Assembly (NCBI GenBank): GCA_023091735.1
Contig: JALKBU010000185.1
Location: forward strand, 1-64,000
Origin: Trichomonas tenax
Taxonomy: Eukaryota; Parabasalia; Trichomonadida; Trichomonadidae
Reading direction: 5' to 3'
DNA: 64,000 nucleotides
Shown here: piece by piece, positions 2,451-46,194 of the stretch
How the letters are laid out: each line of letters starts with the position of its first letter
Position numbering within the stretch: the first letter of the stretch is position 1
Position numbers and translations under genes: made by a program
Notes under the pieces: model-generated
Seen by the model: only the letters and a program-made list of their open reading frames with translations
Database searches by the model: none
Told to the model about the DNA's origin: nothing

Positions 2451-2984
2451 TTATTTTGAGCTTAATTTATTTAACTCCATGGGGTCGATTTCGGGGAAAC
2501 ATGTTGGCTCTGGAGGAAGAATTGGAATTGATAACTCCTTTTCGATTCTCTGTTGGAATTTTGCTCTTTCTATAATCATTTTACGAAATTCGCCAGTTTT
2601 CGTGGTAGTCCATTCATTTTCATGATGTTTATTAAGTATGAGGCTGATGCCCGTATAAAACACATCTAATACTTCCTTGTTTGAAGTAAATACGAAAGTG
2701 TCTTGGTCTGAGAATGTTATAGTGACGAATTGCGTTTTTTTATCATCTGCAGTGCTAATTTCAACGTCGGTTATACCTGTTTTTGTTATTGAGATCGAAT
2801 CCTTAATATCGAGATTTTTCCAGTTAGTTTCTTGAAGACAAATCTTCGTTGGTACAGCTTTTTTCCAATTCGAAGACTTACCACCGTTCTTCAATGCTCG
2901 AACTTCGGTCTCCTGCATGCACGCAGATATCGCATACCTGAGGACATAGAAATTCGGGTCATTGTAAGCTTTCTCAGTGAGCAT
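2451..2984 (-). CDS. PH-like domain protein, possible ELMO C-terminal fragment
   Basis: The 177-residue frame has alternating beta-strand-like segments from ~35 to 118. It has a strand pattern and closing helix typical of a PH fold (W-K-K-A, then L-D-I-K-D-S, V-T-I-T-F-S and a final D-V-F-Y-T-G-I helix). A tail with a proline run (I-P-I-L-P-P-E-P) follows. PH plus a proline tail is how ELMO proteins end, but no ELMO domain is present. No putative promoter box lies directly upstream. Instead a Maverick remnant begins 105 bp before the start, and the nearest box (TTTACATGTCA, ~4836) is beyond it. The gene may have lost its 5' part or promoter to that insertion. The domain call is tentative. Confidence 0.45.
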   Translation of the reverse strand: MLTEKAYNDPNFYVLRYAISACMQETEVRALKNGGKSSNWKKAVPTKICLQETNWKNLDIKDSISITKTGITDVEISTADDKKTQFVTITFSDQDTFVFTSNKEVLDVFYTGISLILNKHHENEWTTTKTGEFRKMIIERAKFQQRIEKELSIPILPPEPTCFPEIDPMELNKLSSK

Positions 2985-3088
2985 TTCGTATTTGAAAGTA
3001 AATATCAGAAAAAGTGATGATGAAAATCATATTTAGTGATTTTTTGATGAATCTGCACTCGCGATGATATTTAGGACAAAAATGCAGT

Positions 3089-3125
3089 AGTATACAGATT
3101 GTGATTTTTGGGTAGTCCAAAATTT
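3089..3125 (+). repeat. Left terminal inverted repeat of the Maverick remnant
   Basis: These 37 nt match the reverse complement of 4657-4694 with a single C-run length difference. The same end, with the same next ~250 bp, recurs inverted at 45.78-46.07 kb. Confidence 0.88.
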
Positions 3126-3374
3126 GGCTAACCCCAAAATATCAGCAATCCGAGAATATCCATAATTATAATTTCCCCAATATATAAAATAAACAATTTT
3201 CCTATCATTTATATCGAAATTCAAATAATTTGTTATTAAAATGCATTGTTTAATTAATAATCTAAATTCTTATTGTTATGATTTATTAATAGTTTCCTAT
3301 AAATTGATGAAAATAAAAAATATTTTTTATATATTATGAAAAAATTAATATATTTTTTCTTCAAATAAATAATT

Positions 3375-3557
3375 ATGACAACAACTCAAAATCTTTATTC
3401 TAATTGTTTTGTGGATAAAAATATCGTATGTAATATTTCAACTTCTGATAAAAAACTTAGTCAATTACTCACAAAGATAACATGTAAATATATGTATCTG
3501 AAAAATCTTAAGAAATATCAAAAAATTGTGGTTTTTTTCAACATCAAGAAAATTTAG
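3375..3557 (+). CDS. Maverick left-end small ORF
   Basis: A 60-residue frame starts M-T-T-T-Q, 286 bp inside the left end. The second Maverick fragment has a frame with the same start and related residues (V-C-N-I-S) at the equivalent distance from its end (45538-45777, reverse). This shared position and start make it a real element gene, though both copies look shortened. I do not recognise the product. Confidence 0.5.
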   Translation: MTTTQNLYSNCFVDKNIVCNISTSDKKLSQLLTKITCKYMYLKNLKKYQKIVVFFNIKKI

Positions 3558-4656: not shown

Positions 4657-4694
4657 AAATTTTGGACTACCCCAAAAATCACAATCTGTATACT
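4657..4694 (-). repeat. Right terminal inverted repeat of the Maverick remnant
   Basis: Reverse complement of the left end. It finishes CTGTATACT at 4694. The inner sequence beyond the ~37-bp repeat differs between the two ends. Confidence 0.88.
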
Positions 4695-5145
4695 ATTAAT
4701 GCCAATTTTTTCTTAATCAAAATCAACAAAAACGAATAATCGATGATATCCAGTTTTGTTCAAAGTTTATGCTCAATAATTGCTGCACATCATGCGTTCC
4801 ATTTCCCTTCGCACAACACATTTTTGACTTTATTAACTTTACATGTCAGTTTTGAAAATCATGTTCATTTGGATGAAAAATCATTATATACATTGGTTTT
4901 CCACTAGATATGCCTTAGCAAAAAGTTAATAAAATATGCTGTCTATATATTGAACCAATTATAATCGATTGTTGTTTGATTTGCGTTGAAAATTGTATTC
5001 AATATGAAATTGGAAAATAATTTTGTTATTGCTGTGATTTGTGTATTTGGATAAATCTGTGTTTAAAGTATCTGAGATTTTGAACATTTGTCATATAAAT
5101 TAATTTTACACGACAAAATTTCCTAAAAGTGACCTTTTTTTCTTG
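4695..5145. promoter_or_regulatory. Spacer and likely promoter of CFIm25
   Basis: Box TTTACATGTCA at ~4836, then TTTTACACGACA at ~5103 and AAAAGTGACC 12 bp before the ATG. A short open frame on the reverse strand from 4821 (about 34 codons) sits right after the first box. It might be the displaced 5' end of the PH-like gene, but it stops before the Maverick and I do not call it. Confidence 0.4.
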
Positions 5146-6056: not shown

Positions 6057-9000
6057 TTATTTCTTGAACTCCTTAACTACTCTATCAATGGCATCCATAG
6101 ACACCGGTTTGACAAGGAATTGATTCATTCCTGCTACCATGCATTCGTCTAAATCCTCCTGAAGAGTGCTTGCAGTCAATGCAATGATTGGAATCTTACT
6201 GTAGTCAGCATCTGATTGTCTGATGATCTTCGTAGCTTCTACGCCATCCATGACTGGCATGTGCTTATCCAAAAGGATGAGATCGAATTTCTCTTCCGCA
6301 AGTATATCTAAAACTTCTTGGCCGTTGGAGACAACTTTGAAGTCATATTTGAGCTTCGTGAGAAGCTTTTGGATGACAAGTTGATTTACTTTGTTATCTT
6401 CAGCCGCGAGGACTCTCACTGTTGAGCTTTCTGAACATTCTTCAGTCTTCTTTGACTTCTTCATTTCCATGAATAATTGACGAAGCTTCGATGGAAGAAG
6501 CGGTTCCATGAGAACTTCATGAGAAACTTTTTCGTTGAATGTGCGATTCTCTGTGAATATTATAACACGTGTTCCAGGGAATTCCTTTTCCATCTGGTTT
6601 GCTTCTTCCTCATTTCTTGTGAAAACCATCTTGATGTCAGATTTCTTGACACTTGCCTCCTTGATGAATGTCACTCCATAAAACTGAGCGAACTTCAAGA
6701 CAATGACATAAGTATGAACTGAAGCAAGATCCAGAGCATAACACTTCTTGTTCTTTAAGTTCTCATGGATATAAGGAACATAAGCAATCTCGTATGGGAA
6801 ATGGACAGTGAATGTTGAACCAACATTTGGAATCGATTCAACTTTCACCCAACCATCAATCAACTTAAGTAGCTTTGATATTAGAGGTAAACCAATACCG
6901 CTGCCTCCGTAGTGCCTTGTTACACTAGAGTCTCCTTGACTGAATGTTTCAAAGATCTCAGTTAGCTTAGACTTCTGGATACCAATTCCTGTGTCAGAAA
7001 CGATAACATTGAAGCCTCCATTTTCTTCATCGAGTCTGTAAGAAACATTGATTGATCCTTTCTCTGTGAACTTGACGGCATTGGATAACAGGTTGTGGCA
7101 AATGCGCAGAAGGAAGTGAGGATCGCCATAGAATATTAACGGGAAATCTCCATCAACATCGACAAAGAAGTGAACATTTGGATTTGCTTGTTGTGCGAGA
7201 TTCAAAATTGTGGTTCTCAAGAAGTCTGCGAGATGGAAAACAACATATGATGGTTTCATTCTATTCTGATCTATCTTCGCAATATCTAATGTATCGTTAA
7301 GCATCTCCATCAGTCTATTGAATGAATCCTTAACGACTTTCATCATTTGGAACTGTTCATCATTGAGTTTTGTTTGCATCAACAACTCCAAAAGTGAAAG
7401 CATACCACCCATTGGTGTTCTGATTTCGTGTGTCATGTTTGCAAGGAACATCGACTTTGCATTTGATGCTTCCAAAGCCTTTTGTCTTTGCTGTTCAAGA
7501 AGCAACTCGTTTTCTCTAAGTTCTGTTAAGTCGAAGTATACACCTGAAAGATTATCATTATTCTTCTTTCCTCTGAACAAAATCCATCTCATCTTTTCGA
7601 AAATCATCGAAACTTCAACTTCAAATGGCTCTCCATCTATTAATGCGCGATCGAATACTTCACGGACTTTCATCAAACAATCGCTGGAAACGTTGTGGAC
7701 TAAACTTGTCAAGTTCAATTTAACTGGTTTGTAAGTGACTGGACAAGATGTGAAAACGAGCTCCTGTTCATCATCATTTTCGAATTCCCAATGAACAACA
7801 TTAGAATGGAACAGAGCTAAGTCAATAACGCTCTTTGCATTGATGAGTTGATCCTTGAATTTCTTTTCGTAGTCAACCAATATGAAAGCGAACGTCATCG
7901 TATCGTTTTCATGTCTTTCAATAACAGTTTCGTACCAACCGTAGCTTCCATCCATCATGACAACTAATGCGAGGAAGCGCAAGCTCGTCTGCTCTCCTGA
8001 TTTGATTTTAGCGTAGTTCAGCTCGAACTTCGTTCTAAATGATGGTTCATAGTAATTCACGAACTCTCTCGCGTAGTGTGGAACGAAAAATTGAGGTGCG
8101 AACGCAGTGAGAATTTCATCTGTCTTTGTATCAATGGCATAAAGATTTATATAGTTTCCGGCAGCTGCCATAAGTGTCTGATCTAAATCAATCGCAAACT
8201 CTGATGTTGGCTGTGAAAGAGCATCGTGAATGTTGAAAATGCAATTTTGATATGAACAGTACCAAATATACTCTCCGTTGTTATTCTTCAGCCTGAAAAC
8301 AATCCAGTTTGACGTTCCAAAGTACTTAGAAAAGAATCCTGCATCTTCAGGATAAATAATATCAAATATCGAGTTGAGTTCTCTTGGATAATCAAGTTCC
8401 TTTGATAAATCTTCATTCATGCAGTTAGAGTCAGAAGTAAACACATGTATCGATAGAAGTCTCTGTAATTGAAGTTCGTTATTGTGAATATCAGTTTCTT
8501 TATCGCAAACTTCCTTCATTCTCGTTAAATCTTCAACCAAAACAGTTCTAACGTAATGTGATTTGAATATATCATGCTCAACTCTCGAATGAATGCCAAT
8601 CCATTGATTATTCTTCAGTTTACAGATTAATGGATCGTTGCTGTTATAAGGGGCTTCATTGATCTTTTCTATAAGTTCTTCTGTTGTCTGAATTGACCAA
8701 GCTGAAATGCTTGATGGATTACGAATATCATTTGGCGTATCTCCATAGAATTCGAATAAACCGAATGCACCAATCTTCTTGAAAAGGTTATGAACTCTCT
8801 GTAGTGTCTTTGAATCTTCTGATGATGAAATATTTAAGTGGAATAATAACGACATTAACAATGCAAGCGTAGCAAATGGTTCCTCGATGCTGTAAATTAT
8901 CGGCTTTGTTGTGTCGATAACACCAACTGTATAATAATTGTTCCTTCCCAATTTAATCATCGAAATATAAAAGATATAATGTTTTCTTCTGTAAATTTTA

Positions 9001-10064
9001 AGTGGTGTTGGCGGAGTTTTCTCGAGGATATCAAAAACCAACTCATTGATCTGTTGATCTTTCGTGCAAAACTCAATTATCTCAATTCCAGCTTGAATTT
9101 CGCAGAAAAAGCCGAAAGCGTCGAAATCAACTCTGTCGTATATACGCCCGATCGAGCAAATGAACATATCGATGCCAGGCGGTTTTAACATGATTTCATT
9201 GATTAATTCATAAAAAACGAGTCTTACATTACAGTGAAAGTAGTATCGAGACGATGTTGGATTTGTTATATACGGCGAATATATCTTAATTGGCTTGTTT
9301 TGGATCTCCAATGTTATCTCGTGAGTGTTTGAATGCGATATTCCGACAGTTTGTGAAGCAATATTCTCATATGTGCAAAGTTCGCATTTTTGGATCAGTG
9401 AAGTAATGTTATGTTCGACATCAAAGAGAAAACAATGAGCTGTTAATCCAAGATTTATAAATTTCGAGAAAGGAAGAACGAAAAACTTGTGGATTGAATC
9501 AGAATCGAGGAAGTATCGAATCTGTACATGTGAGCATTCGTTAAATAAACAATTTTTGTTATCGATTTTAATTCTAATTTTTGGTTTCCGTGTGAGAATC
9601 TTGAAATTGTTATTGAAGACAAACGTATAATTTTGAAATCTCGTAAATTTTGGTAATGGATTGTTGTAAAATGGAGGCAAATACCGAGTTATTAATGCTA
9701 AAAACGTAATAATGGTTAAAATTATTGCTGCTGATTTAATAAATGGATATCGATTCCAATACCTTTCGTATATTGGTTGGTATTTTGATGATATTAAACA
9801 TTTTTTCGAAAATATATATTTTGATTCGACATTTGGTCCGATAGAGAGTCCATTTTTTTGATTTTTGAGTTCATTTACCAATGAATCAAATTCTTCGAAA
9901 ACTTCTAATACGTTTATCGAGTTTTTCGTCGAATTAATATTAAAATATAGATTCAATTTGTATCTCTTTGCAATTTCAACGTAAAAATTGCATTCCTTAC
10001 CATGATCAGAGTCAACTCCGCTCAGGTATCGCATTGATATTGCAAAGAGATAATAAAGAAACAT
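6057..10064 (-). CDS. Hybrid sensor histidine kinase with receiver domain
   Basis: The protein has 1335 residues. A hydrophobic segment near residues 108-128 (I-I-L-T-I-I-T-F-L-A) is the one clear membrane span. A long extracellular- or sensor-like region follows, then PAS-like stretches at ~590-850. The kinase core has the HisKA H-box F-L-A-N-M-T-H-E-I-R-T-P-M with phospho-acceptor His879, an N-box near ~990 (N-L-L-S-N-A-V-K-F), and a G-box D-T-G-I-G near ~1025. A C-terminal receiver domain carries phospho-acceptor Asp1266 in L-L-D-K-H-M-P-V-M-D-G and a conserved Lys near the end. Phosphate should pass from His879 to Asp1266, but no separate phosphotransfer protein is seen here. The gene is intact and stands 240 bp from a broken receptor gene on the same strand. 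Confidence 0.92.
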   Translation of the reverse strand: MFLYYLFAISMRYLSGVDSDHGKECNFYVEIAKRYKLNLYFNINSTKNSINVLEVFEEFDSLVNELKNQKNGLSIGPNVESKYIFSKKCLISSKYQPIYERYWNRYPFIKSAAIILTIITFLALITRYLPPFYNNPLPKFTRFQNYTFVFNNNFKILTRKPKIRIKIDNKNCLFNECSHVQIRYFLDSDSIHKFFVLPFSKFINLGLTAHCFLFDVEHNITSLIQKCELCTYENIASQTVGISHSNTHEITLEIQNKPIKIYSPYITNPTSSRYYFHCNVRLVFYELINEIMLKPPGIDMFICSIGRIYDRVDFDAFGFFCEIQAGIEIIEFCTKDQQINELVFDILEKTPPTPLKIYRRKHYIFYISMIKLGRNNYYTVGVIDTTKPIIYSIEEPFATLALLMSLLFHLNISSSEDSKTLQRVHNLFKKIGAFGLFEFYGDTPNDIRNPSSISAWSIQTTEELIEKINEAPYNSNDPLICKLKNNQWIGIHSRVEHDIFKSHYVRTVLVEDLTRMKEVCDKETDIHNNELQLQRLLSIHVFTSDSNCMNEDLSKELDYPRELNSIFDIIYPEDAGFFSKYFGTSNWIVFRLKNNNGEYIWYCSYQNCIFNIHDALSQPTSEFAIDLDQTLMAAAGNYINLYAIDTKTDEILTAFAPQFFVPHYAREFVNYYEPSFRTKFELNYAKIKSGEQTSLRFLALVVMMDGSYGWYETVIERHENDTMTFAFILVDYEKKFKDQLINAKSVIDLALFHSNVVHWEFENDDEQELVFTSCPVTYKPVKLNLTSLVHNVSSDCLMKVREVFDRALIDGEPFEVEVSMIFEKMRWILFRGKKNNDNLSGVYFDLTELRENELLLEQQRQKALEASNAKSMFLANMTHEIRTPMGGMLSLLELLMQTKLNDEQFQMMKVVKDSFNRLMEMLNDTLDIAKIDQNRMKPSYVVFHLADFLRTTILNLAQQANPNVHFFVDVDGDFPLIFYGDPHFLLRICHNLLSNAVKFTEKGSINVSYRLDEENGGFNVIVSDTGIGIQKSKLTEIFETFSQGDSSVTRHYGGSGIGLPLISKLLKLIDGWVKVESIPNVGSTFTVHFPYEIAYVPYIHENLKNKKCYALDLASVHTYVIVLKFAQFYGVTFIKEASVKKSDIKMVFTRNEEEANQMEKEFPGTRVIIFTENRTFNEKVSHEVLMEPLLPSKLRQLFMEMKKSKKTEECSESSTVRVLAAEDNKVNQLVIQKLLTKLKYDFKVVSNGQEVLDILAEEKFDLILLDKHMPVMDGVEATKIIRQSDADYSKIPIIALTASTLQEDLDECMVAGMNQFLVKPVSMDAIDRVVKEFKK

Positions 10065-17225: not shown

Positions 17226-17577
17226 GAAATTTTTTTTAGTAGACGTTTAAAAATATTTTCTTTGTAAATTCATAATCAAAACTCAAAAATTAAGATCTTC
17301 ATATATATATACGATATTGTATTAATATTGTTAAAATTATAACAAAATCAATTTAATTTGTGCAATTTAGAATACATATTCAAATTTTATTTTTATAAAT
17401 TGTAATAAAATATGTTATTGTGATTATATATGCAATAAATGTCACATACCGAAAGTTGTCACGAAAAAGTGATATTATCTGACATGTAAAGTTGTTAAAA
17501 TCTCCTATTTTATGTGTCAAAATATTAATATTTTTTGACATGTAAAGTCCTATAATCATTCACATTATGTATTAGTT
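17226..17577 (-). promoter_or_regulatory. Promoter-like spacer before the PP2A scaffold gene
   Basis: TGACATGTAAAG-type boxes at ~17480 and ~17537, with a GTCACG...AAAAGTGATA stretch at ~17457-17475. The remainder is AT-rich. Confidence 0.45.
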
Positions 17578-18010
17578 TTATTTCAAAATCGCGTCTGATG
17601 GGAAGAACTGGGGACTACATTGACACAGTTACCACGCGTTAGTAGCTAAACTCACAGATCTTCCTTTCATACGCCATCATTAAGAAATCAAAGATTTCAA
17701 CTTCAGAATGCCTCTGAAGAGCAAAATTAAATGCTTGATTGGGACTTGTAGCCAAGGTGCTAGCAATTCGGTCCACAGTTCTTCCTTTCAGAAGCATTCT
17801 GTAAAGTAAATCGCTGATTATTTCGAAAATCGAGTCTGAAAGGAAGAACTGTTGACTGGATTGCTAAGATTTGGGTATTTGTGCCAATCCAGCCCATAAT
17901 TCTTCCTTTCAGAAGCATTCTGGAGAGTAAATCGCTGATTATTTCGAAGATCGAGTCTGAAAGGAAGAACTGTGGACTGGATTGCTAGCACCTTGGCTAC
18001 CAGTGCCAAT
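17578..18010. repeat. Tandem and inverted repeat block (~122-bp unit)
   Basis: Two good copies start near 17776 and 17898 (each containing TTCTTCCTTTCAGAAGCATT, then ATCGCTGATTATTTCGAA and AAGGAAGAACTGT). A decayed piece lies near 17580-17660. Each unit contains TTCTTCCTTTCAGA and its near reverse complement TCTGAAAGGAAGAA, so the units can fold on themselves. On the reverse strand a ~60-codon open stretch (about 17822-17640) looks coding-like, so this may be the decayed end of a repeat protein gene. No intact frame remains. Confidence 0.75.
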
Positions 18011-18082
18011 AAAGCACTTATTTTTTCTTTTCAAAGTAAATTTAAACAAATATAGGATCATACTTCCAATAATCATTTATAA

Positions 18083-18198
18083 TCACATGCCACGTAAATA
18101 TTTATTTGTCAAATATTTGTGTTTACATATCAGATAATATCACTTTTGTGTCACTTTTTCTTGATAACTTTCGGTACGCAACAATATATGGAATAAAA
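18083..18198 (+). promoter_or_regulatory. Promoter-like boxes
   Basis: CACATGCCACGTAAA at ~18085, TTTACATATCAG at ~18122 and GTGTCACTTTTT at ~18147, all within 115 bp of the ATG at 18199. Confidence 0.5.
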
Positions 18199-42267: not shown

Positions 42268-43134
42268 CTTTGAAGGACCTTAACGTAAGTTCTCAGAAAA
42301 TTTATAAAACATTAAGCACTCGTTTAAACATGTTGTTTGAACAGTATTCTTTTAGTGGGTCGGGGAAATTACACTAAAATCACCCAAAACTGATATGAAA
42401 TATCAAAACGAATTTTTTAAAATCAGAAAATATTAATAAAAAAATACAAAATCTCAATAAAATATTCGTTTTAAACTATTTTTAAAGAGGTAAATATCAG
42501 TTATTTTATGTATTCTTTAAATATTAAACATAAAATAGCACAAATTGTATAATCCGACATTAAATTGTCGTCATTAGGATCTAATTCTTGGTTGAAACGA
42601 TCCGCTTGTGGGACCACAACTCGAAAATAGTACGAAGCGTACAAAAAGCAATACAAAGATGCGATGGTTATTCTCAATATGAAATATTTTTAAGAGATTG
42701 TTTCGCTAGATATAAATGCTTTACTCATTGCCCAGTTGTGAATTATTGAAGGATTTCACATTGTAAACAGTAATAAATAACCCGTTAAAAATGCACAGCA
42801 TGAAGAAGGGAGTCAATCAAAAACGAAAAATATCTCTCAAATTTTGATAACTCCCCATGTAAATAATTTTTTATCAGCCATAAAGTTGAATATTAAATTG
42901 CCATACTTGCATAACATGAATTAGTCAAAAGCGTAAATTCTTAATAATATGGCTGCTCTCACTCTTCGACGTCGATGTGAGCGGGAGGATAAATTTATTA
43001 TGGACAATTTTGTGAATGTCTATCGTCCCATATTGAACAGTTTGTGAGATTCTGAAATGTTATAAAATTGTTTTTGGAACTTTTTGTTATAGAAAGGTGA
43101 TAAACAGTACATTTCTACTGTAGCGTTCGGAAAT
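42268..43134. other. Long gene-free stretch 5' of the phosphatase
   Basis: No ORF of note. CCCCATGTAAATA at ~42853 is a possible box. A GC-rich dyad centred on TCGACGTCGA (GCTCTCAC at ~42955, GTGAGC at ~42977-42982) and a small stem (ACAGTA at 43105, TACTGT at 43117) lie upstream of the main hairpins at nearly the same spacing. I treat both as marginal. Confidence 0.5.
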
Positions 43135-43200
43135 CCCAAAAAGTGTCAAGAAAAGTAACACAGCCTGCCATGTAAACACATGAAAATACCATGTAAGTAA
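43135..43200. promoter_or_regulatory. Promoter-like box set upstream of the hairpin array
   Basis: CAAAAAGTGTCAAGAAAAGT (~43137), CTGCCATGTAAACAC (~43165) and ACCATGTAAGTAA (~43187). The same boxes precede protein genes in this window, and CTGCCATGTAAA recurs exactly at ~47333. No protein ORF follows; the hairpins do. Confidence 0.5.
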
Positions 43201-43201
43201 T

Positions 43202-43268
43202 CTATGTGTCAATTATTTGTTCGCAAATTGATTTCAGCTAATGCCTACAAACAGGTAATCCCACATAG
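43202..43268. ncRNA. Hairpin 0 (weak)
   Basis: Arms 43202-43219 and 43252-43268: seven perfect pairs at the base (CTATGTG/CACATAG), a small internal loop, then ATTA and TG pairs with two G-U pairs. It is weaker than the others but at the expected spacing. Confidence 0.4.
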
Positions 43269-43330
43269 TTGAGCAGTACATACCTTTCGCATTTATTTGA
43301 AAAAAGAGTTGAAATTTCAATTATTTGGAA

Positions 43331-43384
43331 ATACTGATTCTACATCCACTACCAGTAAATAGGGAGTCAGTGCAGAATCAGTAT
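43331..43384. ncRNA. Hairpin 1
   Basis: Arms 43331-43353 and 43362-43384: eleven perfect pairs (ATACTGATTCT), then an interrupted stem toward a short loop. Confidence 0.55.
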
Positions 43385-43440
43385 ATCCTAATATTTTGAA
43401 AAAGTTTAGATTCCCAAATTACCCACAATTTTGTTTGGCA

Positions 43441-43535
43441 TTTTAGCTCAAATCATAGCACAGTTCCATTATGTGAGGCAAGCGTATCATGGATCAGCCT
43501 TATATGATAGAGCTGTACTATGATTTGAGCTAAAA
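43441..43535. ncRNA. Hairpin 2
   Basis: Arms 43441-43463 and 43513-43535 pair at 22 of 23 positions (TTTTAGCTCAAATCATAG, one mismatch, ACAG); loop 49 nt. Confidence 0.65.
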
Positions 43536-43564
43536 AGCAAAATAAAAGTTGATTATTACAAAGC

Positions 43565-43661
43565 TCGCCTATTTGTCAATATTATGCACGAAGCATGTAT
43601 GGAATCTAATATTTCTGTGCACTATATGCATTCTTAGTGCAAAATATTGACAAATAGGTGA
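43565..43661. ncRNA. Hairpin 3
   Basis: Arms 43565-43589 and 43637-43661: 25-nt arms with one G-U pair and one mismatch (core CCTATTTGTCAATATT); loop 47 nt. Confidence 0.65.
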
Positions 43662-43693
43662 TTTGTTAATTACCTACTATATTTGTTCATAAA

Positions 43694-43784
43694 ACATGGA
43701 TATCTGACTAAATCATGTATATTAAACGAACGAGCACATGAAACCAGTTAATGCAATATGTGTGATGAAGTAAGATATCCATAT
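43694..43784. ncRNA. Hairpin 4
   Basis: Arms 43694-43720 and 43758-43784: 27 nt with about 20 Watson-Crick and 3 G-U pairs and scattered mismatches (core ATGGATATCT); loop 37 nt. Confidence 0.55.
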
Positions 43785-43834
43785 TTTTTGAAAAATTCAA
43801 ACAACGTTTCTAAATTAATGAAAAATAAAAATTA

Positions 43835-43901
43835 ATCATGCAGAATGACTCATTATATATGAGAGAACTGCAGCCATATGGAGTGAGTCATTCTGCATGA
43901 T
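43835..43901. ncRNA. Hairpin 5
   Basis: Arms 43835-43861 and 43875-43901: 18 perfect pairs (ATCATGCAGAATGACTCA), then G-U and A-T pairs with a single mismatch to 27; loop 13 nt. Confidence 0.65.
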
Positions 43902-43935
43902 GATCTTGTAAAAACATTATGCAATTTGGAATTTG

Positions 43936-44006
43936 TTTTGCTGCAATGCTGTTCACAAGAGGTGATCAAGGATACATATACATTTATGAGCAGCATTGCA
44001 GCGAGA
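43936..44006. ncRNA. Hairpin 6
   Basis: Arms 43936-43958 and 43984-44006: core GCTGCAATGCTG perfect, extended by G-U pairs to ~23 nt; loop 25 nt. Confidence 0.6.
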
Positions 44007-44034
44007 AAAATAGGATTCTCAAAAATAAAGTCAT

Positions 44035-44171
44035 TGAAATTTCGTTGATTTCAAAATTTTTCAACATCATCATTTAAAACAACCCAATGCATAAGGTTGG
44101 TAAGATATTCCATCCAGTGATCCATTTTTCATGATGATTTTGCTCAAACCAAAAAACTCAACGAAATTTCA
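44035..44171. ncRNA. Hairpin 7 (two-part stem)
   Basis: Outer arms 44035-44048 and 44158-44171 are a perfect 14-bp stem (TGAAATTTCGTTGA). Inner arms 44062-44079 and 44125-44142 pair at about 15 of 18 positions around ATCATCAT. The two parts are separated by an unpaired internal loop. Its right base overlaps the start of hairpin 8 by about 5 nt, so the two cannot both be fully formed. Confidence 0.5.
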
Positions 44172-44261
44172 TGGTTTTCTTGAGGCAATTCTGCTCATAA
44201 TGGTCGACATTGTCCATGTAAGGCCACTTGATAACAGAATTGTCTCAAGAAAACCATGAAA
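44167..44261. ncRNA. Hairpin 8
   Basis: Arms 44167-44193 and 44235-44261: 27 pairs, of which 26 are Watson-Crick and one G-U (TTTCATGGTTTTCTTGAG start); loop 41 nt. Confidence 0.68.
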
Positions 44262-44304
44262 GCAAAAAAATGTATTCGATATTGAGATGAATTTAAACTT
44301 TTTA

Positions 44305-44383
44305 AATTTCATCACAAGGAGTGACTGACTGCGTAGGATATGACACAAATTCAATGCAGTCAGTCACTCCTTGTGATGAAATT
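44305..44383. ncRNA. Hairpin 9
   Basis: Arms 44305-44332 and 44356-44383 are perfectly complementary over 28 bp (starts AATTTCATCACAAGGAGTGA); loop 23 nt. Confidence 0.7.
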
Positions 44384-45050
44384 GGTTCAAAGCATGAAGT
44401 GTGCTAGCATGTAACCTGACAAAAGCACTTTACATACTGTCACTTTTCCTGACATTTTTTTGGGACAGGATTCGGACAAAGTTGTCGAGAAAAGGAATAA
44501 AGAAATGAAAACATAGCCTAATAACACTCCACCTCAGGCTGATACTGTTTAGTTGATTGGAAGTAAAAATAATGCTATTTTGATAAAAATATTATATACA
44601 TTTTTAGATTTCGTCTTTCACGGTTCAGATAGCTTAACAATCAGCTATGTGATCCTTCTAATCTGTAAGAGCTATAAGAAAGGAAAAAATGTTGAGATTA
44701 TCTGACTTGTAGCAAAAATAAACAGAATGTTTGAAATTTGTACTCTAAAACGTAGTATTTCATAAACTGTATGGAATAGGATGTAAGAATAATGCTAGAA
44801 ATCGTTCAATATCGGAATGTTTCAGAATCTTTTTTAAAAGCGAGCTATTTCTTCAATGCTGTAATGAAAGGAACACAAACACAAATGAGCCTCTGCCGCG
44901 AGCAAGCTCGCGTTTCGGCAATGGTAAGGAAGGAATAAATTTTTATTTAGAGAAATTTCATGGGGTAAGAAAGTATGGGTAAGTGAGGTAATGGTAAGGA
45001 AGGAACTTTATAAATATATAATTATTTGGATTGCTTCAATCCTTCAAAAA
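44384..45050. other. Right flank of the hairpin array
   Basis: A second box set at 44405-44460 (CATGTAACCTGACA, CTTTACATACTGTCACTTTT, CTGACATTTTTTT). A small GC-rich stem lies at 44894-44920 (TGCCG/CGGCA outside CGAGC/GCTCG). AATGGTAAGGAAGGAA occurs twice, at ~44919 and ~44990. No gene. Confidence 0.5.
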
Positions 45051-45495
45051 TCAAACTTTAAGACGGGAACAGCTCCATAGATTTGTGGAAATGAGGGTAA
45101 ATTGATGATAAAAATAAATGGAAGGAGTTGATGATGAAAATAAATTTATGTGGTTAGAATACAACATGCATGGATAAGAAATGACCCCTTCTTCATATTT
45201 TCTGAAACCATAAATTTCCATGTTGGTGTTATCACAATATCCACCATAACTGAAGGGACCAAATACTGCACTTAATGATTCAAGCCAATTAAACATCAAG
45301 GAATTCATTCTCTGTTTTAATTGAGTCAAAATCAAAATATAAGTGGATGTATTGTTCAGAAATCAAAAATTCAGTGAAACCTTTAGTGAAATCATAAATG
45401 TCAACATCTGAAAATGAAATTTCTTGTGTAATGAAGTTGTTAGGTATGTTGAAACAAACGTCGTATTTTATTTTGTTTTCAGATTTTTTACTCAT
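45051..45495 (-). pseudogene. Frameshifted Maverick ORF (possible primase-like start)
   Basis: Two overlapping frames (45495-45289 and 45335-45051) read as one protein with a frameshift near 45300: a strand ending I-H-L-Y-F-D-F-D, then a helix W-L-E-S-L-S-A-V-F-G, then F-S-Y-G-G-Y-C. A hydrophobic strand followed by D-x-D recalls the catalytic start of archaeo-eukaryotic primases, but that is only a resemblance. It is broken and short. Confidence 0.4.
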
Positions 45496-45537
45496 ATTTA
45501 AATATTTAAAAGTTCATCAAGTTCAACACAGCTCATC

Positions 45538-45777
45538 TCACCAATCTTGCTCATCATCTTTATTAAAGAATAAAAAAATATTTTTTGTTTTAAAAACTAA
45601 CTTAATTGTGGGCTGAATTCTAAAACTAATTTTTAATTTGTTAGAAATGCCAAAATCAGTGAAAGTTAGTCCTGAGCACAAATTTTTTTGACATCCACAG
45701 CCATGATTAGATGAAATATTACATACATCTTTTTCATTCTGAATATTAACACCAGAAATTGTTTGAGTTGTTGTCAT
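45538..45777 (-). CDS. Maverick left-end small ORF, second copy
   Basis: 79 codons from an ATG 292 bp inside the end. It shares M-T-T-T-Q and V-C-N-I-S with the ORF at 3375-3557. It contains G-C-G-C and other cysteines, but no known domain. Confidence 0.5.
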   Translation of the reverse strand: MTTTQTISGVNIQNEKDVCNISSNHGCGCQKNLCSGLTFTDFGISNKLKISFRIQPTIKLVFKTKNIFLFFNKDDEQDW

Positions 45778-46194
45778 AATGATTTATTAGAGAAAAAAAT
45801 ATATAAATTTTTTCATAACTAAAAATATTTTTTATTCTAACAATTTAGATAAACTATTAATAAATCCCTACCATAAGAATTTTATTATTAATTAAACAAT
45901 ATATTTTAATAACAAATTATAAGAAATTACTGGTATTTCGATATAAATTATAGGAAAATTGTTTATTTTATATATATTAGGGAAATTATGATTATGGATA
46001 TTCTCAGAGTGGGATTTTTTGGGGTTAGCCAAGTTTTTGTATTACCCCAAAAATCACAATCTGTATACTACTGGATTTCTGTACGCGACAAAACAGTACA
46101 TTTCTACAAAATGAAAAAAGATAGGAAAATTTTTAGAAAATATTAACAGAATTAAACAAATAAAAAACAAAGAAAGGGTAATATGATAATAGTA

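Follow-up and report, generated by a model that had tools for sequence, protein, structure and literature searches.

The window analyzed in this work, a stretch of 64,000 nucleotides of Trichomonas tenax DNA, contains at positions 43202–44383 a regular series of hairpins. A Sey1-type protein is encoded approximately 2 kb from this array, and its identities of 73% to T. vaginalis TVAG_100140, 47% to Tritrichomonas foetus and 35% to Histomonas bear out the initial annotation, made from the sequence alone, in its view that the host is a trichomonad. Farther away, the minus strand at 6057–10064 encodes a hybrid histidine kinase of 1335 aa (HisKA, HATPase_c, and Response_reg). No open reading frame of at least 100 aa (ATG, GTG, or TTG start) was found to overlap the array, in agreement with the earlier description, and a search of the whole window with Rfam at gathering thresholds returned no match to a known structured RNA.

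The hairpins, all given here on the plus strand, are numbered 0 to 9 after the consensus of the repeat family to which the array belongs (family 1, see below), which folds into 10 domains, hairpins of approximately 100 nt with 34–50 pairs each, whose centers are 101–139 bp apart at a pitch of approximately 125 bp. Hairpin 0 (43165–43276) is weak in the window copy and has 34 pairs in the consensus fold, and hairpin 1 (43306–43413) has 38 pairs in that fold with a stem at 43322–43341/43374–43393. Hairpin 2 (43429–43547, with 51-nt arms) and hairpin 3 (43558–43666, at 43568–43658) are long and near-perfect stems. They are followed by hairpin 4 (43686–43792), hairpin 5 (43835–43901), hairpin 6 (43931–44011) and hairpin 7 (44062–44142), the last again weak in the window copy. 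Hairpin 8 (44167–44261) has a 27-nt stem at 44167–44193/44235–44261 with a single non-Watson-Crick position, a G-U, and hairpin 9 (44305–44383) is a perfect 28/28 stem at 44305–44332/44356–44383. The stems singled out originally (the 28/28 stem, the 27-nt stem with one G-U, and the long near-perfect ones) are therefore real, as is their regular spacing; the count of ten hairpins holds for the consensus fold but not in full for the window copy, in which two of the ten (hairpins 0 and 7) fall below our strict stem cut, a Watson-Crick-only score of at least 12.

Controls with dinucleotide shuffles, which had been proposed as a check, came out clearly in favor of the stems. We found 8 hairpins in 43202–44383, whereas the 200 shuffles averaged 0.035 and never held more than 1, and folding of 43420–44390 gave an energy of −357 (z of −21.6) on the plus strand and −327 (z of −17.8) on the minus strand, with none of 20 shuffles as good on either strand. 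Across the rest of the window the same scan gave one comparable pair of stems (17761–17866, score 23, and 17885–17984, score 20), a single stem at 9961–10052 with a score of 16, and weak others scoring 12–13. Stems and folding thus exceed chance, as they would in the hairpin precursor of a microRNA gene, and the inverted repeat arms lie in tandem hairpins in the manner of a hairpin-RNA locus. The size and spacing of the hairpins are also what one would look for in a miRNA-like cluster of the host, whose unique guides are kept by host selection at this locus, which was the reading originally offered.

The region is not unique, however: in the genome assembly searched (53.4 Mb in 1528 contigs) the array matches at least 40 places, window and fragments included, with 40 of 75 first-look candidates scored. 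At least 13 places besides the window match at practically full length with 92–94% identity, and the seven most complete copies that we measured are 1368–1385 bp long. The homology of complete copies starts at 43118–43119 and extends to the right terminal inverted repeat (TIR), so that both limits of homology are TIRs. The ends of family 1 are inverted repeats of approximately 45 bp (consensus TGTAGCGTACGGAAATCCTGCCCCAAAAAGTGTCAGGAAAAG; terminal inverted repeats TGTAGCGTACGGAAATCCTGCCCC...), a length given by a 78-base query from the right end that matches the left ends of the copies over the first 45–46 bases of the query only.

The window copy spans 43119–46090 (plus strand), with TIR tips at both ends and family homology over 43119–44472, and it has been split by a later insertion. 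Its left TIR (TGTAGCG..., approximately 45 bp) occupies 43119–43163 on the plus strand, where the homology of complete copies starts and where an inverted match to the right ends is found. The right end, with the inner portion of its TIR, matches the right end of locus L015; it lies at 44413–44472 (minus strand) and is cut at 44472, where family homology stops. Here a 1.6-kb segment foreign to family 1 (44473–46075) has inserted into the right TIR. The outermost 15 bases of the right TIR, recognized as a match to the TIR tip (TGTCGCGTACAGAAA on the minus strand), follow at 46076–46090. The whole is flanked by a perfect 17-bp target site duplication (TSD), aaacagtacatttctac, at 43102–43118 and 46091–46107 (17/17 identical). 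The insertion itself shows by eye a 5-bp duplication, GGATT, and its end matches window positions 3085–3443 (81%) and 4660–4695.

Target duplications of 14–17 bp (score of at least 6) are present in 8 of the 20 elements of families 1 and 2 that were examined, and a clear TSD is absent from the other 12. Two of 22 listed loci (L009 and L069) were left out of this count as they had no usable pair of ends. When the right flanks were reassigned in 500 shuffles, the mean number of duplications was 0.38 and the maximum 3. Besides that of the window copy, they include a 15/16 duplication at L010 and a 15/15 duplication around a family-2 copy nested in L023. It is thus nearly certain that the array makes up the inside of a multi-copy, non-autonomous DNA transposon. 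A transposon had been dismissed on the grounds that the arms do not recur; the whole array turns out to lie inside such an element, whose ends exist outside the hairpins, at 43119 and 46090. The initial observation is real, but its boundary was drawn wrongly, as the unit is the transposon.

A single-copy miRNA cluster is rejected, because the array is found at 40 or more places in the genome. A host cluster that is selected at this locus, even as one copy of a family, also seems very improbable, as the window copy has its right end interrupted by the insertion and lies 3.8% from the consensus, much like the other near copies (approximately 3.7% each).

The ends allow the element to be placed. 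IS481EU transposons have termini TGT..ACA, or TNT..AYA in T. vaginalis, TIRs mostly below 50 bp and TSDs of approximately 4, 15, or 25 bp, they are found in parabasalids, and some of their non-autonomous families have no known partner (Kojima and Bao, 2023; PMC10045372). Family 1 (TGTAGCGTAC..GTACGCTACA) and family 2 (TGTTGCGTACCGAAA) both have TGT..ACA termini, the TIR of approximately 45 bp is below 50 bp, and the duplications of 14–17 bp, seen clearly in 8 of 20 elements and not in the other 12, fall near the published middle class. The hairpin element therefore matches the IS481EU kind in its ends, TIR length and TSD length. This comparison is with the published description rather than with consensus sequences, and the main text of that paper does not describe an internal hairpin array.

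Among the rve profile matches and the family-1-end loci that we checked, no intact transposase with family-1 ends was found. The genome holds 33 rve matches, from which six loci were fetched. Four of these (L057, L059, L074, and L075) look, judged by their reading frames, like what we take to be Maverick integrases, and L058 has an rve gene with no TIR match. The sixth, L056, contains at 333–2186 a decayed, IS481-like rve_3 integrase-core gene approximately 650 bp inward from a family-2-type TIR tip, with its 3' side towards this TGTTGCGTACCGAAA end; the other end of the element was not found. This gene is a candidate autonomous relative of family 2. Five further loci with family-1 ends, absent from the array matches given above, were considered as the autonomous partner; they match the family over 47–239 bases only.

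Hairpins at a similar pitch are not confined to family 1. The pair of stems noted above in the rest of the window belongs to an element of family 2 at 17440–18183 (plus strand), which has a different interior, its own TIR variant (TGTTGCGTACCGAAA), a 13/14 TSD, and two long hairpins (17761–17866 and 17885–17984) with centers 123 bp apart. Family 2 has 269 first-look candidates in the genome, of which 40 were scored, and the copy nested in L023 is a shorter one with a perfect 15-bp duplication. Family 3 (the hairpin in L063) is found at 20 places. Family 4, named for L021, has nine hairpins of 27–55 pairs there, at 1543–2006 and 2882–3486, and gave 109 candidates with the second L021 array alone as the query, 40 of them scored. 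Between the two arrays, at L021:2079–2517, is an open frame of 146 aa with no clear Pfam match, which may be a gene of the family-4 element. Two family-4 places (C1042 and C1060) are located inward of a TGTTGCGTACCGAAA end, at distances of 599 and 613 bp, which suggests that family 4 is also such a transposon; this adjacency comes from comparing two match lists and concerns those two places only, and at L021 itself no TGTTGCGTACCGAAA-type end was found.

The spacing of hairpin centers is 101–139 bp in family 1, 116–129 bp in family 4, and 123 bp in family 2, so that a similar spacing is seen in two of the three further families, namely those in which more than one hairpin was seen. L060, a diverged relative of family 1, has steps of 126, 113, and 101 bp and two double steps of 221–222 bp. 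The phenomenon thus extends over several families of transposons and repeats with hairpins at a similar pitch, and we found no published account of trichomonad transposons with hairpin arrays in the open-access literature.

It is also important to consider how the hairpins of one array are related to each other. Most of them are unrelated, as was first stated, but hairpins 5 and 7 and hairpins 6 and 8 match each other with BLAST E values of 7e-8 and 2e-6 (in a search against nine hairpins only) and align with scores of 21.7 and 24.4, where shuffled sequences reach 4.3 and 5.1 at most. From their sequences, these two pairs look like diverged duplicates and are likely paralogues, so the exclusion of tandem duplication cannot stand as it was made. 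L021 similarly repeats two hairpin types. At L060:228–330 and L076:865–964, hairpin 4 is inverted and found on the opposite side of hairpin 3, which has kept its orientation, and hairpins thus seem to move or flip as units.

Such rearrangement is somewhat expected if the hairpins are a mutational by-product, in which template switching often makes inverted duplications in this genome, one arm now and then serves to correct the other, and the transposon carries the arrays as functionless passengers. The inverted and displaced hairpin 4 fits this account, as do long and near-perfect solitary hairpins elsewhere: we find 15 stems outside families 1 and 2, L060, and L076 in the 324 kb examined, six of which belong to families 3 and 4 (L063 and L021) and nine of which do not. 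It does not lead one to expect that a spacing of approximately 125 bp should recur across families with different hairpins. Its further requirement, correction between arms, can be compared with the changes that the copies have accumulated.

In the resident copies, meaning 39 of the 44 alignment rows (L023_2, L039, L044, L046, and L048 were left out; the set contains some short fragments, and the element L023 contributes two rows), 3.2% of arm positions, 3.9% of unpaired hairpin positions, and 3.8% of spacer positions have changed. Four diverged copies have changes of 10.2% in arms, 17.1% in unpaired positions, and 8.7% in spacers, so that spacers change no faster than arms. The rates of arms versus loops are not taken here as a sign of selection, since stem mismatches count by definition among the unpaired positions, and a cleaner count of terminal loops leaves too few positions; that arms change almost as fast as unpaired positions and spacers in the resident copies nevertheless sits poorly with host selection at the locus. 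Across 8605 pairs, the 506 single changes in the resident copies comprise 130 to G-U, 150 to A-C, and 226 other breaks. Doubly changed pairs number 20 against 12.5 by permutation (maximum 24), and compensated doubles number 9 against 6.3 (maximum 16 in 500 permutations), which is inside the permutation range. Near copies decay regardless of pairing, and the structure that a microRNA gene would keep at its locus is not seen to be kept.

Compensatory changes in stems, which the initial annotation had proposed looking for, do appear between diverged relatives, though not among resident copies. Between subfamilies, 23 of 32 double changes are compensated (909 pairs in 31 comparisons), where permutation gives 8.5 ± 2.5 and none of 2000 permutations reaches 23. 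Between paralogous hairpins, 28 of 46 are compensated (369 pairs in 11 comparisons) against 12.7 ± 2.8, again with none of 2000. L060 alone has 10 of 15 (213 pairs) against 3.4, with none of 5000. The between-subfamily set excludes L048, a near copy that accounted for 5 of 36 comparisons, and the paralogue set excludes three family-2 comparisons with no compensatory doubles and one uncompensated. An anchoring filter that requires matching neighbors on both arms, and so guards against register shifts, leaves 15 compensated doubles against 8.1 for subfamilies (P of 0.001) and 9 against 3.9 for paralogues (none of 2000).

These values have to be read with some care, as the comparisons share copies and the permutation P values are consequently too small. 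The signal is also concentrated: hairpin 3, with compensatory changes in L060 and L076, and hairpin 4, with such changes in L060, L076, and L078, together hold 16 of the 23 between-subfamily compensations, family 4 holds 22 of the 28 paralogue compensations, and 18 of the 31 between-subfamily comparisons have no double changes at all. When partners are slid by 2–4 bases, 21–32 doubles are counted where 21–26 are expected, against 38 where 21 are expected for the true partners; the excess at slid positions means that there is some clustering of changes independent of pairing.

The contrast between diverged and resident copies suggests that pairing has been selected in the lineages that moved, and it is likely that pairing is maintained in the mobile lineage and not locus by locus. 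The same contrast speaks against a general arm-to-arm correction in DNA, which should show in the resident copies, where compensations over the 8605 pairs stay within the permutation range. A mutational by-product, on which the strand symmetry described next also bears favorably, seems to us quite unlikely.

If pairing is selected in RNA from one strand, wobble pairs should be tolerated above A-C mismatches on the transcribed strand. In the consensus the ratio of G-U to A-C mismatches is 23:24, in diverged copies 78:89; for single changes it is 130:150 in resident copies and 49:48 in diverged ones. The balance in the consensus means that there is no sign of selection on RNA from one strand. 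Paralogue comparisons lean toward G-U at 30:16, in 11 comparisons that are not independent, and the three family-2 comparisons give 4:3. Strand-specific RNA selection through an excess of G-U is thus unsupported in consensus, diverged, and resident copies, and the tilt in paralogues is weak. Folding energies of the consensus hardly differ between its strands (−434 and −442). The plus strand is somewhat favored in the window copy, in L060 and L076, and in the second of the L021 arrays, and the minus strand in the first of them. Taken together, these results mean that both strands are used, or that the pairing matters as DNA, or that selection is loose.

The second of these options amounts to a distinct explanation, in which hairpins or cruciforms are structural parts of the transposon that help it to excise, integrate, or replicate, or that shield its single-stranded intermediates. 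The symmetry of mismatches and of folding between the strands is in line with it, as is pairing that is conserved in the mobilizing lineage and drifts after insertion, and the hairpins do sit inside a transposon. Ten different hairpins over 1.1 kb, however, go beyond the needs of a structural end, two long hairpins suffice for the family-2 element of the window, and the main text on IS481EU never mentions hairpins or palindromes (PMC10045372). We consider a role of the pairing in DNA unlikely on balance.

The alternative that we prefer involves RNA, and two genes found in this genome speak for it. One encodes an Argonaute of 808 aa, in which PAZ and Piwi domains are recognized and an ArgoN match narrowly misses the curated cut-off. 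The other, at L030:565–3027 (minus strand), encodes a Dicer-like protein of 820 aa that has two RNase III domains but gives no Pfam match to PAZ or helicase. The presence of these genes would suit a host miRNA-like cluster as well, but T. vaginalis miRNAs are reported to be barely detectable, at an abundance of 0.0046% (PMC7844918). Unique small RNAs of T. vaginalis instead peak at 34 nt (PMC7845603; PMC7844918); they map to transposons, on both strands in the case of Tvmar1, and the account in PMC7845603 leaves open how the 34-nt RNAs are made and what role Dicer has. The folded hairpin domains, of 27–55 pairs and mostly 31–51, have room for about one duplex of approximately 34 nt each, a fit that was noticed after the fact. 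DNA searches with the whole array for targets of the arms listed matches that all read as family members; short targets are below the reach of such lists.

With this in mind, we propose that the element is or was transcribed, and that its long transcript would fold into a string of hairpins. Each hairpin, with 27–55 pairs and interspersed mismatches, could yield about one duplex of approximately 34 nt through the Dicer-like RNase III, to be loaded into the PAZ-Piwi Argonaute. These hairpin RNAs may benefit the element that makes them, for example if they modulate the silencing of that element or of competitors, and under this proposal master copies alone would be under selection. A small-RNA role for the array is plausible, with about even chances in our judgment, and the hairpin-carrying families may feed the small-RNA system of this trichomonad. 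We would put the explanation as a whole (an IS481EU-kind element with hairpin cargo, pairing kept in the mobilizing lineages, and hairpin RNAs made from it) at an evenly balanced prospect.

Several known systems resemble parts of this proposal. Like the non-autonomous IS481EU families, some of them partnerless, the element has the expected ends and duplications in a parabasalid host, and what sets it apart from their published description is the array (PMC10045372). Drosophila hairpin-RNA loci are likewise inverted-repeat arrays whose copy number shifts by duplication, as in the hp-CG4068 cluster with 20 copies in D. melanogaster and 9 in D. simulans, and the Dicer-type processing shown for them is the fate suggested here for the trichomonad array; they differ in being host loci with tandem copies of one hairpin (PMC10317233), where the trichomonad array is a dispersed transposon in which most hairpins are unrelated. 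Plant microRNA genes derived from MITEs are also non-autonomous DNA transposons whose transcripts fold as miRNA precursors, but a MITE transcript is described as forming a stem-loop and the trichomonad element has approximately ten internal hairpins separate from its TIRs (PMC10004981). The 34-nt RNAs and PIWI-like Argonautes of T. vaginalis come from the same group of organisms, and we found no hairpin array given as an origin of these RNAs (PMC7845603).

A broader and more tentative proposal, whose parts taken jointly we regard as rather doubtful, is that trichomonads harbor mobile small-RNA arrays. These would be IS481EU-type transposons that have given up their transposase for strings of different hairpins at a fixed pitch of approximately 125 nt, each able to give about one duplex of approximately 34 nt, and selected in the mobile lineage because their RNAs act on PIWI-type silencing, for example as decoys for, or guides against, host defense and rival elements. 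Such arrays would rank as a major origin, among hairpins, of the 34-nt RNAs and would be what the Dicer-like enzyme mainly acts on. If this is true, transposons with many different long hairpins in regular order, and with signs that pairing is selected in the mobile lineage alone, would hand that enzyme an obvious substrate and would suggest that a selfish element exploits the silencing pathway for itself.

Long hairpins with arms of 36–50 nt also occur singly, at L012:5323–5402, L012:2432–2538, L017:3285–3370, and L020:5746–5876. The first of these is a perfect 36/36 stem that by eye follows a second fragment of the family-1 left end, and the last has arms of 37 nt; both are among the nine stems outside the families mentioned above.
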